A stretch of DNA of 64,000 bases from Dehalogenimonas formicexedens. Its GTDB lineage: Bacteria; Chloroflexota; Dehalococcoidia; Dehalococcoidales; Dehalococcoidaceae. Made by a program: the position numbers and the translations under genes. This document shows positions 2,757 through 49,752 of the stretch, piece by piece. Where the stretch lies: the NCBI RefSeq assembly GCF_001953175.1, contig NZ_CP018258.1, positions 958,210 to 1,022,209 on the forward strand, in the 5' to 3' direction. The notes below the pieces were generated by a model that did not search any database, had not been told where the DNA came from, and saw only the letters and a program-made list of their open reading frames with translations. Each line of letters starts with the position of its first letter. Positions within the stretch are counted from its first letter, which is position 1.

Positions 2757-2774
2757 GGCGCCAAATCAATATCA

Positions 2775-3041
2775 AAGGCTGTGAGCGGGAATAGTAAGTT
2801 CCTCAGCCAGGCCCCAGAGAGCCGGAAAAGGTGAAAGCCGGCGCCTGAGCGGGAATTGAATGGACCCGGGAGCCGCTGCCCGAAAGAAAATAGGAGCAGC
2901 CGCGAGGGATGCGTTATAATCCCAGGATATATACCATCAAATGATGGCGTATCCGTAATGAGATAGCTCCTGCCGTGTGGCGAAGCTAAAAAGGGTGGCA
3001 CCGCAGAGCCCTCTGCCCCTTAATAAGGCAGAGGGCTTTTT
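2775..3041 (+). promoter_or_regulatory. T-box riboswitch, tRNA-Trp specific (specifier UGG)
   Basis: The leader carries the hallmarks of a T-box in order. An AGTAA element lies near the base of stem I, then AGAGAG at about 2816, then the apical GGTGAAAG. The specifier loop GAA-TGG-ACC has the codon TGG (Trp) at 2861-2863. The antiterminator T-box AAGGGTGGCACCGC lies at 2991-3004. It is followed by an intrinsic terminator with 11-bp arms (3007-3017 and 3027-3037) and a run of T. By family knowledge, uncharged tRNA-Trp stabilises the antiterminator and switches on the downstream gene, here the TrpB2-type tryptophan synthase. The specifier codon and the gene agree, which supports both calls. Confidence 0.92.
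3007..3041 (+). terminator. T-box attenuator terminator
   Basis: AGCCCTCTGCC pairs with GGCAGAGGGCT around a 9-base loop and is followed by TTTTT. Its 5' arm directly follows the T-box sequence, as expected for mutually exclusive terminator and antiterminator folds. Confidence 0.85.
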
Positions 3042-7624: not shown

Positions 7625-7885
7625 AATTCCCGTCCACTGTAAGGGACGGGAAATACCCGCGGTACCACCCTATTTCCCCGATATCTCGGGGCGCTTTTTC
7701 GGGCACCACCATGCCCTGCCGGGATAACGGCCGGCTGCCGTCCGTGATTACTTGCCGCTATCGGCGTTCATCTGAAAGCTCAGGAGTGATTTTCAGCCGG
7801 CTTTTTCCCGCCTGCTCGCACCGTACCAGGCTCGCTTGGGGATTTACGCAGCTTACTCGTCTCCGTCAACGCTGTTAGAGGAAGG
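7625..7885 (-). promoter_or_regulatory. T-box riboswitch, tRNA-Ile specific (specifier AUC)
   Basis: On the minus strand the leader shows GAGTAAGC and GCGAG elements of stem I, then a specifier loop reading GAAAATCACTCC with the codon ATC (Ile) at 7790-7788. The T-box AGGGTGGTACCGCGGG is at 7671-7656, followed by the attenuator hairpin. The specifier matches the downstream ileS. Low charging of tRNA-Ile should therefore raise synthetase expression. Confidence 0.92.
7629..7650 (-). terminator. Attenuator terminator of the ileS T-box
   Basis: Read on the minus strand, arms of 7 bp (7644-7650 and 7629-7635) close an 8-base loop, and T-rich sequence follows before the ileS start. Confidence 0.75.
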
Positions 7886-43308: not shown

Positions 43309-44565
43309 ATGATCGCCAGTTTAATCGTTTTCTTTCTAACCATTGCCGGAATCATCTGGCGCCCCTGGCGCCTGTCCGAAGCCCTGATCGCCTCACTCGG
43401 CGCCGCCGCCATGGTAGCGGCAGGCCGTCTTTCGGCCGGCGACGCTTTGAACGCCCTAGAAAACAATCTGAACGTGCTCGGCTTTTTCCTGGGGCTGATG
43501 ATCGTCGCGGCTATCGCAGAATCTGCCGGATTGTTCGAAACGGTTACCGAAAAAGCTGTGGTGCTGTCGCGCGGCAGCGGCAGGCGGCTCCTCCTGATAG
43601 TCTTCGGCATCGGCGTGGTCGTCACCGCTTTGTTATCCAACGATGCCACGGCTTTAATGCTGACCCCGGTCGTGTTTCTTCTGGTCAGGCATCTCGAGGT
43701 TGATCCCATACCCTATGTCTTCGCCTGCGCCTTCATCGCCAACGCCGCGTCTTTCCTGTTGCCGGTTGCCAATCCGGTAAACCTCGTAGCTGTCGACGCC
43801 TTTGATCTTCGCCTCGGCGATTACCTGGCTCACCTGTTGCTGCCGAGCATGGTTGTCATCGCGGTGACCGTCGGCCTGTTCCTGTATATCTTCCGGAGAG
43901 AAATTCAGTCAGTCTTCTCTCTCGGGGATTTCTCGATGAAGGTAAGTTCCCGAAAGCTGGACCGCCCCGTTGTCGCGGTCTTGATCTTGATCGCCCTTGG
44001 TTACGTCGTATTTTCCCTTAATGGCTGGCCTCTCTCGGTGCCGGTGCTCATTGGAGCCTTGACTCTACTCGGCGTTTTTGCAGGGCGAAAAATAAGATTG
44101 TCCGAGATTTCCCGCTCGATAAGCTGGTCCATTCTCCTGTTCGTCGCTGGCTTGGCCGTCCTGGTCCGGGGGTTGGAAGCAAGCGGAGTCACTCAAAGCC
44201 TCGGTGAATCTTTCGCTCGCCTCCTTGGCCACGGGGAACTGCCTGGCGCCCTGGCAACCTCTTTCGGCACCGCGGCTGGCTCCAATCTGATGAACAACTG
44301 GCCGATGATGATGGTCTCCGTGACCACCCTTTCAGGTGCCCCGGACGCCGTCGCCGCCAATCCGGGTTTACCCTACCAGGCTATCCTTGGCGCCGCCCTG
44401 GGACCTAATATCGCCGTCATGGGATCGTTGTCTTCAATGCTGTGGCTGCTCATCCTCCGCCGGCGGGGGCTCAACGTCACCGCCGGTTCATTCCTGAAAC
44501 TGGGACTACTGGTGACTCCGGCCGCCCTCCTGTGCGGCAGTTTAGTCCTGTATCTCTTGAGTTGA
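43309..44565 (+). CDS. ArsB/NhaD/SLC13-type membrane transporter
   Basis: 418 residues with about 11-12 membrane segments. The ArsB-like halves each carry a conserved hairpin: SNDATALMLTPVVFLLVRHL in the first and GSNLMNNWPMMMVSVTTLSG in the second. ANAASFLLPVANPVNLVAVD is typical of the ion-transporter superfamily. Candidates are arsenite or antimonite export, or an anion/Na+ carrier; no arsR, arsC or arsA is beside it, so the substrate is open. The ATG has no strong Shine-Dalgarno. The next gene starts one base after its stop. Confidence 0.82.
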   Translation: MIASLIVFFLTIAGIIWRPWRLSEALIASLGAAAMVAAGRLSAGDALNALENNLNVLGFFLGLMIVAAIAESAGLFETVTEKAVVLSRGSGRRLLLIVFGIGVVVTALLSNDATALMLTPVVFLLVRHLEVDPIPYVFACAFIANAASFLLPVANPVNLVAVDAFDLRLGDYLAHLLLPSMVVIAVTVGLFLYIFRREIQSVFSLGDFSMKVSSRKLDRPVVAVLILIALGYVVFSLNGWPLSVPVLIGALTLLGVFAGRKIRLSEISRSISWSILLFVAGLAVLVRGLEASGVTQSLGESFARLLGHGELPGALATSFGTAAGSNLMNNWPMMMVSVTTLSGAPDAVAANPGLPYQAILGAALGPNIAVMGSLSSMLWLLILRRRGLNVTAGSFLKLGLLVTPAALLCGSLVLYLLS

Positions 44566-44566
44566 T

Positions 44567-45880
44567 ATGAAAAGTTTCACCACCAATCCGACGGTAAATA
44601 AAAGCCTGAGGCTTTCGGTCTTCGATGGCGCCGCGTTCAACGCCATGATGGGTCTGACCCAGGACTTCATGTCCCCGTTCGCCCTTGCCCTCAAGGCTTC
44701 CACCGCCCAGATAGGTTTGCTTGCCAGCCTGCCCAATCTTGCTCTGGCTTTGTCGCAACTGGGTTCCCCCTGGATTTCCGAAAGGCTGCGGAGTCGAAAA
44801 AGTCTCCTGGTGCCCATGGTTATCACCCAGGCTGTCCTCTGGCTGCCGATATTTATCATGCCCCAGCTTTTCCACAACATGGCGGTATGGTGGCTCATCG
44901 CGCTGTTCACTGCCGGCAGCGTTTTCGGCGCCCTGGGGAACCCCGCCTGGGGCAGTATGATGGCCGATCTTGTTCCCGCCGGTATGCGGGGCCGCTATTT
45001 CGGCTTCCGTAACCGGATCGGCGGCGCTACCCTGCTGGCCTGCTTTTTCCTCGGCGGGCTGGTACTGCAGGCGTCATCGAACCAGATTATGCTGGGTTTC
45101 GGCCTGTTGTTTGGCGCGGCGGTTATCTTCCGCCTGGCCTCCGCTTACTTCCTTTCCAAAATGTACGAACCGCCGATGCGTCGGTGCAATGATCCGTGGC
45201 ATCCCTTTCATGAATTGAAGACCCTGCCCGCCACCCCGGTAGGCCGTCTCAGCCTGTTCGTTGGGGCAATGATGCTGGCCACCTATGTCGCCTCGCCGTT
45301 CTTTGCGGTTTACATGCTGAACGATCTGGGCTTCGGGTATGGGGCTTTTGTTGTCGTCACCGCGTCGGCCAGCGTCGCCAATTTCCTGTTCATGGGGTTC
45401 TGGGGAAGGCGCGCCGATAGATCCGGCCATCTTCAGATCGTCCGGGTGACGGCGCTCATGATCCCGCTGGTGCCGGTGTTGTGGCTTGCCGGCCATAACA
45501 TCATTTATCTTATCGTCATCCAGGTGTTTTCCGGGTTTGCCTGGAGCGGTTTCAATTTGTCCGGTACCAATCTCCTCTATGAGGCTGCCGCGCCGGAACG
45601 GCGCACCCGGGCGATCGCTGTCTTCAATGCCCTCTCAGGTACGGCTATGTGTATCGGAGCGGCCGTCGGGGGACTGATCGCCACCAGACTTCCGGAAATA
45701 TCCGGGCAATCGCTCCTGACCCTGTTTTTGATCTCCGGGATTTTGCGCGGCGCGGTTACGGTGTTCATACTCCCGAGCCTCGGCAGGTCAAAACGGGTTG
45801 ACCGGATGCCCATTCTCTCCCAGGCTCCTTCTTCTTTGGCGCTCCGGGTTCTCAGGGCTTTCCAGCGTTTCATCGACTAG
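44567..45880 (+). CDS. Major facilitator superfamily transporter
   Basis: 437 residues with 12 predicted membrane segments. Family marks are the loop after segment 2 (ISERLRSRKSLLVPMV) and the second-half equivalent WGRRADRSGHLQIVRV. Substrate is unknown; sequence around AFNAMMGLTQDFMSPFALAL fits a small group of uncharacterised MFS proteins. It is directly coupled to the ArsB-like gene, suggesting a joint transport or resistance role. Confidence 0.88.
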   Translation: MKSFTTNPTVNKSLRLSVFDGAAFNAMMGLTQDFMSPFALALKASTAQIGLLASLPNLALALSQLGSPWISERLRSRKSLLVPMVITQAVLWLPIFIMPQLFHNMAVWWLIALFTAGSVFGALGNPAWGSMMADLVPAGMRGRYFGFRNRIGGATLLACFFLGGLVLQASSNQIMLGFGLLFGAAVIFRLASAYFLSKMYEPPMRRCNDPWHPFHELKTLPATPVGRLSLFVGAMMLATYVASPFFAVYMLNDLGFGYGAFVVVTASASVANFLFMGFWGRRADRSGHLQIVRVTALMIPLVPVLWLAGHNIIYLIVIQVFSGFAWSGFNLSGTNLLYEAAAPERRTRAIAVFNALSGTAMCIGAAVGGLIATRLPEISGQSLLTLFLISGILRGAVTVFILPSLGRSKRVDRMPILSQAPSSLALRVLRAFQRFID

Positions 45881-45948: not shown

Positions 45949-45976
45949 TTGACGTCAGGTACAGGTTTGCTACAAT
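45949..45976 (+). promoter_or_regulatory. Promoter of the lysine aminomutase cluster
   Basis: TTGACG (45949-45954), 16 bases, TACAAT (45971-45976). The palindrome GAACGTTC overlaps the 5' side of the -35. The GTG start at 46007 has AGGAG six bases ahead. Confidence 0.65.
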
Positions 45977-46006: not shown

Positions 46007-47308
46007 GTGAAAGAAGAGACCCTGATTACCGAAGACCCGGCTGATCCTCCCTCGTGTTCGCACGAAGCTGACGAACCTCCCCTTACTTCGTCACAAAGTT
46101 TCCGCCTCAAGTTCTACCCCGATGTCAGCGACGCCCAGTGGAATGACTGGCACTGGCATTTCAAGAACCGAATCACCTCCATCGAAGACCTCATCCGTTT
46201 TATTCCCATGTCCGTAAAGGAAAAAACCCGTCTCAAACTGGTAACGGCCCGCTTTCCTTTAGCTATTACCCCTTATTATCTTTCCTTGATGGACCTTTCA
46301 GATCCCAATGACCCCGTCCGTCTCCAGGCAGTCCCCTCGACGTTGGAAACCGCCGCCGGCACCGGCAACGAGGATCCCCTGGCGGAAGAGCGGGATTCGG
46401 TCGTCCCCGGCCTGGTCCACCGCTACCCCGACCGCGTGCTGATGGTCCTGACCGACATTTGCGCCATGCTCTGCCGCCATTGCACCCGCAAGCGTGAATG
46501 GCAGCACGGCGGCTGGATCCACACCCCGGAACAGGTCGAGCGCATGCTGGATTACATCCGCAAGAATCCCCAGATCCGGGATGTCATCATCTCCGGCGGC
46601 GATCCGTTGACCCTCTCCACCCATCAATTGGAGAAAGTCCTCATCGCCCTGCGCCAGATCAAGCACGTCGAGATCATCCGCATCGGCACCCGTTTCCCGG
46701 TGGTCCTGCCGCAACGGATCGACGAAGAACTCTGCGCCATGCTTTCGAAATACGGCCCTATCTGGCTGAATACCCATTTCAACCATGTGAATGAAATCAC
46801 CCCGGAAGCCGCTGCCGCCTGCGACCGCTTGCTGCGGGCTGGCGTCCAGGTCAACAACCAGAGCGTGCTGCTCCGAAGTATCAACGATACCGTGGAATCT
46901 CAGCTCAAGCTTTGCCACGGACTCCTGAAGGCCAAGGTCCGCCCGTACTATCTCTTCCAGTGCGACCAGGTACAGGGTACCGAACACCTGTGGACGCCCG
47001 TCGAAGTCGGTTTGCGAATCATTGAAGGTATGCGCGGCCATACATCCGGCCTTGCCATCCCGAACTATGTCATAGACCTTCCCGACGGCCGGGGCAAGAT
47101 TCCGATGACTCCGAATTACGTCCTTACCCGTACCGACAGCGAACTCGTGGTCAGAAACTACGAGGGGCACATCAGCCATTTCGCCAATCCCAAGCCGGCC
47201 CCGGCGCCGCGTAAACCAAGGCCGGTCTCACCACCCGTACCCCAACTTTCGCTTGATTGGACTGTAACTGAGGTAAAGAATGAAAATAGGGCTGGCGTAC
47301 GACCTTAA
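46007..47308 (+). CDS. kamA: Lysine 2,3-aminomutase (radical SAM, PLP)
   Basis: 433 residues. The radical-SAM cluster is C152, C156, C159 (CAMLCRHC). The PLP lysine is K364 in the GRGK motif. The two Asp residues that bind the epsilon-amino group of lysine in the clostridial enzyme (D293, D330) are kept as D320 (FQCDQV) and D357 (VIDLPD). Glutamate 2,3-aminomutase has Lys and Asn there, so lysine is the predicted substrate and beta-lysine the product. The C-terminal cysteine-rich end of the clostridial enzyme is replaced by a Pro-rich tail. The end overlaps the next gene by 29 bases. The cluster suggests further conversion of beta-lysine. Confidence 0.92.
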   Translation: MKEETLITEDPADPPSCSHEADEPPLTSSQSFRLKFYPDVSDAQWNDWHWHFKNRITSIEDLIRFIPMSVKEKTRLKLVTARFPLAITPYYLSLMDLSDPNDPVRLQAVPSTLETAAGTGNEDPLAEERDSVVPGLVHRYPDRVLMVLTDICAMLCRHCTRKREWQHGGWIHTPEQVERMLDYIRKNPQIRDVIISGGDPLTLSTHQLEKVLIALRQIKHVEIIRIGTRFPVVLPQRIDEELCAMLSKYGPIWLNTHFNHVNEITPEAAAACDRLLRAGVQVNNQSVLLRSINDTVESQLKLCHGLLKAKVRPYYLFQCDQVQGTEHLWTPVEVGLRIIEGMRGHTSGLAIPNYVIDLPDGRGKIPMTPNYVLTRTDSELVVRNYEGHISHFANPKPAPAPRKPRPVSPPVPQLSLDWTVTEVKNENRAGVRP

Positions 47309-48281
47309 ACAATCCATCACCGCTACGCCCGCTGCCCCAGTTGATGCTTTAGAAGAATACGATTCAGCCGAAACGGTGAATCTTCTCGCCGCCGCCATCG
47401 AGCAAGCCGGCCACCAGCCGGTCAAACTCGGCGGCGGTCGCGAATTTTTAGACAACGTTTTGGGCAACCCGGTTGATTTCGTCTTCAACATCTCCGAGGG
47501 CCGCGGCGCCTACCGTTCACGGGAAGCCCAGGTGCCGTCGGTACTGGAAATGCTGGGCATACCCTATTCGGGGGCGGATCCGCAGACCCTGGCTATTGCC
47601 CTGGACAAGCCGCTGACCAAGCAAATCGTCCAGTTGGCCGGGGTGAAGACCCCGCAATGGCGCTTCTTCGCTAAACCTGAAGAGGCTAGACATGCAGACT
47701 GGGATGACTTCCGGTTTCCCGCCTTCGTGAAGCCGGCTTTCGAAGGTTCCAGCAAGGGCATCCGCCTGACGTCGACCGCCGGTAGTCCTGCGGAGGTAAT
47801 TGATCACGTCGAAAAGCTTTTCGAAGGTTACGGGCAGGCTGTGATAGCTGAAGAGTTTATCGATGGCGATGAAGTCACCTGCGGTGTCATCGGCAATATC
47901 TCCCCGGGCAAGCCCCAACCCCTGGTGCTGCCTATGCGCATCGTGCCCCGGCAGAAAAATGGCCCGTTTATCTATTCCCTCGAGGTCAAGCGGGACTACA
48001 AAAAGCTGGTCGACTACGAGTTTCCGGCACAGCTTCCGCCGGCTGTCATTGATCGCATCAAATCGCAGGCGCTCACCGTTTTCGGCACCCTTGGTTGCCG
48101 GGATTTCACCCGCATGGATTTCCGCATCGCCGCGGACGGCACGCCGCATTTTCTGGAGGTCAACCCGTTGCCCGGTTTATCGCTGGACAGCGATCTGTTC
48201 ATCATTGCCACCGGAATGGGATGGAGCCATGCCAGGTTGATTGTGACCATCCTGGAAAACGCCATTTCCCGATACCCTTAG
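47280..48281 (+). CDS. ATP-grasp ligase, D-Ala-D-Ala ligase-like (first of two)
   Basis: 333 residues with the ATP-grasp core: FPAFVKPAFEGSSKGIRLTS (lysine and glycine loop for ATP), AVIAEEFIDGDEVTCGVIGN, and the metal-binding end FLEVNPLPGLSLDSDL. It forms a peptide-type bond from a carboxylate via an acyl-phosphate. Compared with true Ddl, the N-domain and the serine loop differ (NISEGRGAYRSREAQVPSVL). It is coupled to the aminomutase, so the amine donor or acceptor may be beta-lysine. Peptidoglycan Ddl is the conventional alternative, but there is no mur gene nearby. Confidence 0.85.
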   Translation: MKIGLAYDLKQSITATPAAPVDALEEYDSAETVNLLAAAIEQAGHQPVKLGGGREFLDNVLGNPVDFVFNISEGRGAYRSREAQVPSVLEMLGIPYSGADPQTLAIALDKPLTKQIVQLAGVKTPQWRFFAKPEEARHADWDDFRFPAFVKPAFEGSSKGIRLTSTAGSPAEVIDHVEKLFEGYGQAVIAEEFIDGDEVTCGVIGNISPGKPQPLVLPMRIVPRQKNGPFIYSLEVKRDYKKLVDYEFPAQLPPAVIDRIKSQALTVFGTLGCRDFTRMDFRIAADGTPHFLEVNPLPGLSLDSDLFIIATGMGWSHARLIVTILENAISRYP

Positions 48282-48283
48282 TT

Positions 48284-49279
48284 ATGCAAATAGCCCTCAT
48301 ATATAATGCTCCGATCCCTTCTCTCTACGACGCCCGCGGCGAATCGAAAGCCGAGTCGGGCGTCCTGGAGGCGGTCAGAGCGGTCCGCCGCTCAATCCGG
48401 GCGCTTGGCCATAATCTGATCGAATTCCCCCTGTTGCCGCCGTTGGAGAGCGTCAGAAAGACACTGGCAACGGTCAAGGCGGACTGCGTTTTCAATCTCT
48501 TCGAAGGTTTCGCCGGTCTGCCGAGGACCGAGGCCGAGGTCGCCGGATGCCTTGAGGACTTGGGGCTCCCGTTCACCGGCTCGCCGTCATCGGCGCTTTT
48601 ATTGGCTCTTGATAAAGCGGCCGCGGCCAGCCGGTTGCGCCACCGCGGTATCCGAACCGCCGCTCAGCAGCTGCTCGAAACCGGATATTTGTCGAACTTT
48701 CACTTGAAATTTCCGTGCATCGTGAAACCACAGGCGGATGACGCCTCCCACGGTCTATCGGAAAACAGCGTAGTATTTGATACCGGTGCCCTCTTCCGGG
48801 AAGTGCAGGCCTCCGTCGAACGGTACGACAGCGCCCCGGCCCTGGTCGAGGAATTCCTGCCCGGGCGTGAATTCAATGTCACCGTGTTCGGTAACGACGT
48901 TCCCGAGGTCTTGCCGCTTTCGGAGATTATCTACACCCTTCCTCCCGGCCTGCCCAAGATTCTGACTTTTGCAGCTAAATGGGAACCCGAGAGTTCCTAT
49001 TTTCAAAATACCAATGTTAAGTGCCCGGCTGACATTACCCCTGAACTTGCCTCCGATCTTAGATCGACCGCTTTGGCGGCTTTTAATGCCATCGGCTGCC
49101 GAGGCTATGCAAGAGTCGATATGAGGCTTGATTCCGAGGGACAACCGGTGGTGATGGAAGTCAACGCCAATCCAGACCTCTCCCCCGATGCCGGCACCGT
49201 CCGTCAGGCCAAAAAAGCCGGGTTGTCTTATAAGGGCATGGTGAAACGGATTATCGAATTTGCCCTGGAGAAAACATGA
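48284..49279 (+). CDS. ATP-grasp ligase, D-Ala-D-Ala ligase-like (second of two)
   Basis: 331 residues from the ATG at 48284, two bases after the previous stop. The product begins MQIALIYNAPIPSLYDARGE. The core is FPCIVKPQADDASHGLSENS, ALVEEFLPGREFNVTVFGND and VVMEVNANPDLSPDAGTVRQ. It is clearly diverged from the first ligase, so the pair is not a recent duplication. It may use a different amino acid. Two ligases in series could build a three-part product or use two different partners. It overlaps the acetyltransferase start by four bases. Confidence 0.85.
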   Translation: MQIALIYNAPIPSLYDARGESKAESGVLEAVRAVRRSIRALGHNLIEFPLLPPLESVRKTLATVKADCVFNLFEGFAGLPRTEAEVAGCLEDLGLPFTGSPSSALLLALDKAAAASRLRHRGIRTAAQQLLETGYLSNFHLKFPCIVKPQADDASHGLSENSVVFDTGALFREVQASVERYDSAPALVEEFLPGREFNVTVFGNDVPEVLPLSEIIYTLPPGLPKILTFAAKWEPESSYFQNTNVKCPADITPELASDLRSTALAAFNAIGCRGYARVDMRLDSEGQPVVMEVNANPDLSPDAGTVRQAKKAGLSYKGMVKRIIEFALEKT

Positions 49280-49752
49280 TAACCTACCGTGAACTTACTG
49301 CTGCCGACCGCCCCGCCATTACCGCTTTCCTCAAGCGGATACCGGAATTCGCTCCGGATGAACTGCCGGTAGCCGAGGAAGTACTAGACGATTCTTTGGA
49401 TGAATCGCATGAATCAGGGTACTACACCATTGTCGGCCTCGAGGACGGCCGGCCCGTAGGCTATGTCACCTATGGCAATACGCCGCTGTCCAAAGGCAAC
49501 TGGGAGATCTACTGGGCGGCTGTGGCCCCCTCTGAACAGGGCAAAGGCATTGGGCAAGAGCTTATGCACCGGGCTGAAGAAGCGATCAAGAGCCTGGGCG
49601 GCTGGCAGATAACCCTGGAAACTTCCTCAACGCCGCTCTACGATAAAACACGCCGGTTTCACATGAAGTGCGGTTTCAAGGAGATCGTGCGGATTCCGGA
49701 TTTCTATGACCGCGGCGATGATCTGGTGATTTTCTTTAAAAAACTGGATTAA
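49276..49752 (+). CDS. GNAT-family N-acetyltransferase
   Basis: 158 residues with the GNAT acetyl-CoA motif VAPSEQGKGIGQELMHRAEE (Q/RxxGxG/A) and the later FHMKCGFKEI. It transfers acetyl from acetyl-CoA to an amine. It is the last gene of a tight four-gene unit after lysine aminomutase. In methanogens and some bacteria an aminomutase (AblA) with an acetyltransferase (AblB) makes N-epsilon-acetyl-beta-lysine, an osmolyte. Here two ligases are added, so the acetylated species could be a dipeptide. The ATG overlaps the preceding stop (ATGA). Confidence 0.85.
   Translation: MITYRELTAADRPAITAFLKRIPEFAPDELPVAEEVLDDSLDESHESGYYTIVGLEDGRPVGYVTYGNTPLSKGNWEIYWAAVAPSEQGKGIGQELMHRAEEAIKSLGGWQITLETSSTPLYDKTRRFHMKCGFKEIVRIPDFYDRGDDLVIFFKKLD

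Follow-up and report, generated by a model that had tools for sequence, protein, structure and literature searches.

Background

The ablA-ablB gene pair constitutes the N-epsilon-acetyl-beta-lysine pathway (Pflueger et al. 2003, as cited in PMC1224877 and PMC3543383; also PMC11337218), and the osmolyte dipeptide N-acetylglutaminylglutamine amide (NAGGN) is produced by a pathway comprising AsnO and Ngg (PMC8070244). In this study, we analyzed a four-gene cluster at positions 46007-49752 of a 64,000-nucleotide stretch of the Dehalogenimonas formicexedens genome; the whole of that stretch is referred to as the window. The cluster encodes a lysine-2,3-aminomutase-type radical S-adenosylmethionine enzyme (KamA), two ATP-grasp ligases with the fold of D-Ala-D-Ala ligase (Ddl), named G1 and G2, and a GNAT acetyltransferase. 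Our results support the four genes as a real, conserved and co-evolving set, and we give an even chance to the reading that the operon makes an intracellular metabolite that resembles a di- or tripeptide, contains beta-lysine and is acetylated. The component families are known, while the pathway, its spread and a motif in the KamA tail were not found in open-access papers, although no search was aimed at the motif. No description of the four-gene pathway was found in the open-access papers searched, in agreement with an earlier note on this DNA, whose author knew of no characterised pathway with this gene set.

Gene arrangement and the lysine pocket of KamA

All four genes lie on the forward strand: KamA (46007-47308, 433 aa, identified by profile and structure-family matches), G1 (47280-48281, 333 aa, PF07478), G2 (48284-49279, 331 aa, PF07478) and GNAT (49276-49752, 158 aa, PF00583). 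KamA and G1 overlap by 29 bases, G1 and G2 are separated by 2 bases, and G2 and GNAT overlap by 4 bases, so that the spacing claimed in the earlier note matches the coordinates of the open reading frames (ORFs) exactly. KamA starts with GTG and is preceded by AGGAG a few bases 5' of the start; a longer TTG start offered for G2 by the ORF finder is spurious.

KamA scored 333.9 bits with TIGR00238 (cut-off 199.2) and was also matched by PF12544 and PF04055. The only solved relative found was the Clostridium lysine 2,3-aminomutase 2A5H (531 bits, family profile), in which D293 and D330 bind lysine; these correspond to D320 and D357 in the KamA of the window, and the earlier note was right that both aspartates are retained. 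Across the cluster KamAs, D293, D330, R134, K337, Y113 and Y287 of lysine 2,3-aminomutase were kept in 34 of 34 sequences, as were the equivalents of the CxxxCxxC cysteines (C125, C129 and C132) and of the pyridoxal phosphate lysine K337. Because the lysine-pocket residues are kept in every one of these sequences, the conversion of lysine to beta-lysine is the predicted reaction of KamA. In glutamate 2,3-aminomutases the positions of D293 and D330 are occupied by other residues, and the glutamate 2,3-aminomutase model TIGR04368 gave 450.6 bits and did not reach its cut-off of 650. An identity as glutamate or arginine aminomutase is disfavoured by the profile scores and by the kept pocket residues.

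Two diverged Ddl-fold ligases

The two ligases were matched by PF07478 with 105.8 and 101.5 bits (cut-off 24), and both fell far under the cut-off of every Ddl/Van model, the best scores being 155.2 and 137.2 against 243. AlphaFold models of G1 and G2 had a predicted local distance difference test confidence (pLDDT) of 95 and 93, respectively, and a fold search with the G1 model, the only one used, returned DdlB proteins as the best PDB matches. Ddl pocket residues were then placed on both ligases by sequence alignment. G1 retains Ddl K97, K144, S150, E180, E187, K215, R255, D257, E270, N272 and G276 in 44 of 44 rows, and the substrate-pocket residue Y216 is replaced by R in 42 of the 44. In G2 the ATP/Mg residues and R255 are kept in all or nearly all of 34 rows, and the pocket is changed at Y216 (W in 34/34), at S150 (A or G) and at G276 (mostly D). 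The description of the pair as diverged D-Ala-D-Ala-like ATP-grasp ligases thus holds, with Ddl-type ATP/Mg residues kept, Ddl scores below cut-off and Y216 replaced. G1 also carries an acidic EEYD patch at residues 25-28 (E26 and D28 invariant, E25 near-invariant), which by eye lies near the position of Ddl E15, the residue that contacts the amine of the first substrate. Such a patch would fit a di-cationic substrate with an extra amine, for example beta-lysine, and the kept R255 of both ligases suggests an acceptor with a carboxylate; judged from their sequences, G1 and G2 appear to be active ligases with substrates different from D-Ala. Another Ddl-like ATP-grasp gene was observed in two genomes of the same genus (L118:3657-4763 and L119:3175-4305), where it lies downstream of a conserved gene encoding roughly 338 aa.

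The Ddl fold might also point to the synthesis of a wall peptide or cross-bridge, one of the products suggested in the earlier note. However, in the host genome (2.09 Mb, one contig) neither a Mur pathway nor a true Ddl was found; the single protein with a Mur-ligase domain (448 aa, 40 bits) is probably FolC, and G1 and G2 are the only strong Ddl-like proteins. The cell-wall reading falls on this gene content, and, with the Ddl models far below cut-off as well, we regard it as hardly conceivable.

Distribution and co-evolution of the cluster

Orthologues of G1 were identified in 8 of 8 genomes of the genus, in 3 of 3 genomes of another genus of the family, presumably Dehalococcoides, and in 32 of the 61 relatives sampled overall. 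In 22 of 30 loci of relatives (L006-L035) the four genes stand together with their order unchanged; the remaining loci are truncated by contig ends or short flanks, or belong to Dehalococcoides, which retains KamA-G1 only. A cross-phylum survey, in which the 80 best loci were taken from a scan of 84,980 species, found KamA close to G1 in 69 of these loci, while G2 was present in 60. The loci come from Dehalococcoidia, Planctomycetes, Acidobacteria, Deltaproteobacteria, Omnitrophota, Margulisbacteria and Clostridia. The order KamA-G1-G2-GNAT recurs in Dehalococcoidia, Acidobacteria and Desulfobacterota-type genomes, and KamA-G1, usually with G2, occurs in Planctomycetes, Omnitrophota, Margulisbacteria and Clostridia. 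Within the phylum of a Syntrophaceae genome (Desulfobacterota-type), 86 of 247 genomes carried G1, many of them with KamA-G1-G2-GNAT in order. The conservation of the four genes together, which the earlier note had proposed to look for, is seen in relatives and in other phyla alike.

Among 300 Chloroflexota genomes, KamA was present in 57 of 59 with G1 vs 67 of 241 without it (Fisher p = 7e-24, the genomes being related and not independent). KamA was also present in 18 of 20 genomes chosen mainly because none had been seen beside G1. Across 51 loci, the pairwise distances of the three proteins KamA, G1 and G2 correlated with one another at r of 0.86-0.91 (maximum 0.24 after shuffling), to which shared species history contributes. 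G2 is absent in several lineages and is therefore regarded as an extension of a KamA-G1 core; the constant partner of KamA is G1, not GNAT.

An acidic-PP motif in the N-terminal tail of KamA

The N-terminal tail of the cluster KamAs is variable and contains, once or twice, an acidic-PP motif of the form (D/E)(D/E)PP[G/S] or a close variant of it; motif matching places the two of the window at 46043-46054 (DPPS) and 46070-46084 (DEPPL), both on the forward strand. Within the first 90 residues, the motif was detected in 42 of 59 KamA ORFs vs 0 of 725 other ORFs (predicted ORFs, L036-L115), and of the 154 partly redundant rows that represent G1-associated KamAs in fetched loci, 118 had it. Only one of 20 KamAs from genomes lacking G1 had it, and that one probably by chance, while the KamAs of two genomes (G084 and G102) carry it though they lie away from G1. 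Clostridia, Anaerolineae-type genomes and some of the Desulfobacterota have KamAs without the motif. Our guess is that the motif may serve as a docking site. The fuller proposal, of a phylum-crossing acetylated beta-lysine peptide pathway in which the KamA motif docks to the ligase and so channels beta-lysine into peptide rather than into abl-type acetylation, is a tentative one, to which we give appreciably less than even chances.

GNAT and the relation to the abl pathway

GNAT reached no acetyltransferase equivalog cut-off; its closest solved relative is 2R7H (155 bits, the next best having 34 bits). The combination of KamA and an acetyltransferase is that of the abl pair, and with the lysine pocket of KamA kept, the two could make plain N-epsilon-acetyl-beta-lysine with the ligases unrelated to them. 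Against this, the AblB model TIGR03827 matched neither GNAT nor any other protein of the host genome, and it is G1 rather than GNAT that is constant with KamA. As a control, the AblA-AblB of Dehalococcoides, which is one fused protein (L207:4727-6949 in G010, with homologues in G008 and G009), scored well over both cut-offs, with 757.7 bits for AblA and 344.6 bits for AblB. Dehalococcoides thus has the canonical fusion plus a separate KamA-G1 pair, and hence the cluster is not just a further way of making N-epsilon-acetyl-beta-lysine. The plain abl pathway was rejected on the absence of AblB and the profile scores, and an abl-type product with unrelated ligases is considered very improbable.

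Proposed pathway

In the pathway that we propose, KamA would isomerise L-lysine to beta-lysine, as the conserved pocket residues suggest; G1 would activate a carboxylate with ATP and couple beta-lysine to an amino acid; G2 may add a further residue to give a tripeptide-like product; and GNAT may acetylate an amino group of the intermediate or the product. The last step is the weakest: the product might accumulate as a compatible solute or other intracellular compound, by likeness to the NAGGN dipeptide pathway. An intracellular solute or similar metabolite is favoured because the cluster occurs in every sampled genome of the genus, because no exporter is constant, and because of the NAGGN precedent; by this analogy the product is perhaps a compatible solute, a role we place below even odds.

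Several observations weigh against the proposed pathway and role. KamA is below the AblA equivalog TIGR03820 (469.7 bits, cut-off 525.4). Dehalococcoides keeps KamA-G1 despite having AblA-AblB, so that the need for a second osmolyte is not evident, and no osmotic-stress genes were seen beside the cluster. At five loci (L075, L077, L108, L113 and L160), G1-G2 occur without an adjacent KamA, and the first substrate may therefore differ there. The wide separation of the genes in relatives, which the earlier note held to speak against a joint pathway, is not what was found in Dehalococcoidia and several other phyla, where the genes adjoin; it does hold for Anaerolineae-type genomes, in which KamA and G1 co-occur unlinked and the KamA is one of those lacking the motif.

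Promoter and neighbouring genes

A single sigma-70-like promoter, as claimed for the four genes, was located by consensus match at 45949-45976 on the forward strand (TTGACG-16 nt-TACAAT, with TG before the -10 element, i.e. an extended -10). It matches the consensus at 10 of 12 positions, a score that about two sites are expected to reach by chance in the scanned region, and it sits 30 bases before the KamA start in the 126-base space between KamA and an upstream major facilitator superfamily (MFS) transporter gene (44567-45880, forward strand), a possible accessory gene that is likely its own transcription unit. An ArsB/CitMHS-type transporter is encoded at 43309-44565, two genes upstream of the cluster. 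Elsewhere in the window, T-box leaders were observed at 2772-3023 (forward strand) before a TrpB-like gene and at 7639-7878 (reverse strand) before an isoleucyl-tRNA synthetase-like gene, both genes being named by eye.

The neighbours of the cluster recur in other loci, and none of them is universal. The MFS family that includes the upstream gene of the window also flanks the cluster in L036, L050, L055 and L096. Dehalococcoidales loci contain a MarC membrane protein and, in several cases, a divergent gene for a MarR-like winged-helix regulator. A third ATP-grasp protein, RimK/LysX-like, recurs with KamA-G1 (L103-L105, L111, L096, L076, L143 and L194), its L104 member having no Pfam match; in Omnitrophota and Margulisbacteria it is accompanied by an S66 peptidase, and peptide hydrolases (S66, and TldD/PmbA-like by eye) flank the cluster versions of these two groups. 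In Dehalococcoides (L116:4477-9800, G010), genes for a Fur-family regulator and for ZnuA-type zinc ABC uptake lie downstream of KamA-G1 in the same orientation.

A small peptide that is either secreted or imported, such as an antibiotic-like or metal-binding one, would account for the flanking MFS genes, for the zinc-uptake genes and their regulator, and for the S66 peptidase of the Margulisbacteria array, since such peptidases are a type known from self-immunity. No transporter is constant, however, the zinc genes adjoin the cluster only in some loci, and the presence in all genomes of the genus and of Dehalococcoides is unlike that of a patchy natural product, so that we consider such a peptide unlikely. 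A natural-product megacluster was rejected, no nonribosomal peptide synthetase (NRPS) or constant tailoring genes being noticed among the inspected neighbours.

In one genome (L194:3880-10107, G084), a deoxyhypusine-synthase-family gene, an agmatinase and a pyruvoyl arginine decarboxylase are followed after a 2-base gap by the third ATP-grasp gene, G1, G2 and GNAT. A gene fusing a histone deacetylase (HDAC) with a GNAT domain also adjoins the cluster or forms part of it in several loci of Dehalococcoidales and Desulfobacterota (e.g. L056:5197-6933), with a homologue elsewhere in the genome of the window (L208:4139-6043); the fusion fits acetyl chemistry. Acetylpolyamines are frequent substrates of bacterial HDAC-family enzymes, and these two findings could mean that the ligases join amino acids to a polyamine, or that KamA uses another basic amino acid, with acetylating and deacetylating enzymes acting on polyamine-like products. 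The polyamine-gene link is confined to one genome, and like the zinc-uptake link it is based on few genomes. Moreover, both ligases keep the Ddl arginine that binds the acceptor carboxylate, a group polyamines do not have, and we consider a different amine quite unlikely. An acetylated beta-lysine peptide is preferred over both alternatives.

Significance

G1 is carried by about one third of the 247 Desulfobacterota-type genomes and one fifth of the 300 Chloroflexota genomes, and also occurs in Planctomycetes, Acidobacteria and Omnitrophota. If the proposed pathway is true, it would yield an overlooked metabolite that is common among anaerobes and among organohalide-respiring bacteria without a cell wall, give a role to two Ddl-like ligases that are likely to be misread as wall enzymes, and bring a beta-amino acid into the NRPS-independent metabolism of small peptides. 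The operon is small and lends itself to direct testing.

Comparison with known systems

The cluster resembles abl in having a KamA with a lysine pocket and an acetyltransferase gene in the same operon. It differs in that its KamA is below the AblA cut-off and has a shorter C-terminus, its GNAT is not AblB, it contains two ATP-grasp ligases where abl has none, and the constant partner of its KamA is G1, not an acetyltransferase. The Ddl/Van ligases share with G1 and G2 the ATP/Mg residues and the fold (compared for G1 only), whereas the cluster ligases score below cut-off, have R (G1) or W (G2) for Y216 and belong to a host without a Mur pathway. For GNAT, the closest solved relative bears the PDB title "putative D-alanine N-acetyltransferase", which is the depositors' guess, and we know of no activity for it. 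BacD-type L-amino acid ligases and 3VOT likewise form peptide bonds by ATP-grasp chemistry without NRPS, but match the cluster ligases weakly (51-64 bits) and have no aminomutase partner. Like the NAGGN pathway, the cluster would make a small peptide without the ribosome and acetylate it with a GNAT, and it has a peptidase and a divergent MarR-type regulator among its neighbours in some loci. NAGGN is built from glutamine with an asparagine synthetase, a gene not seen beside the cluster in the window (the host genome was not searched for one), whereas the cluster would use beta-lysine and two separate Ddl-fold ligases. The kind of pathway to which the cluster would belong is the non-NRPS synthesis of small peptides containing a beta-amino acid.

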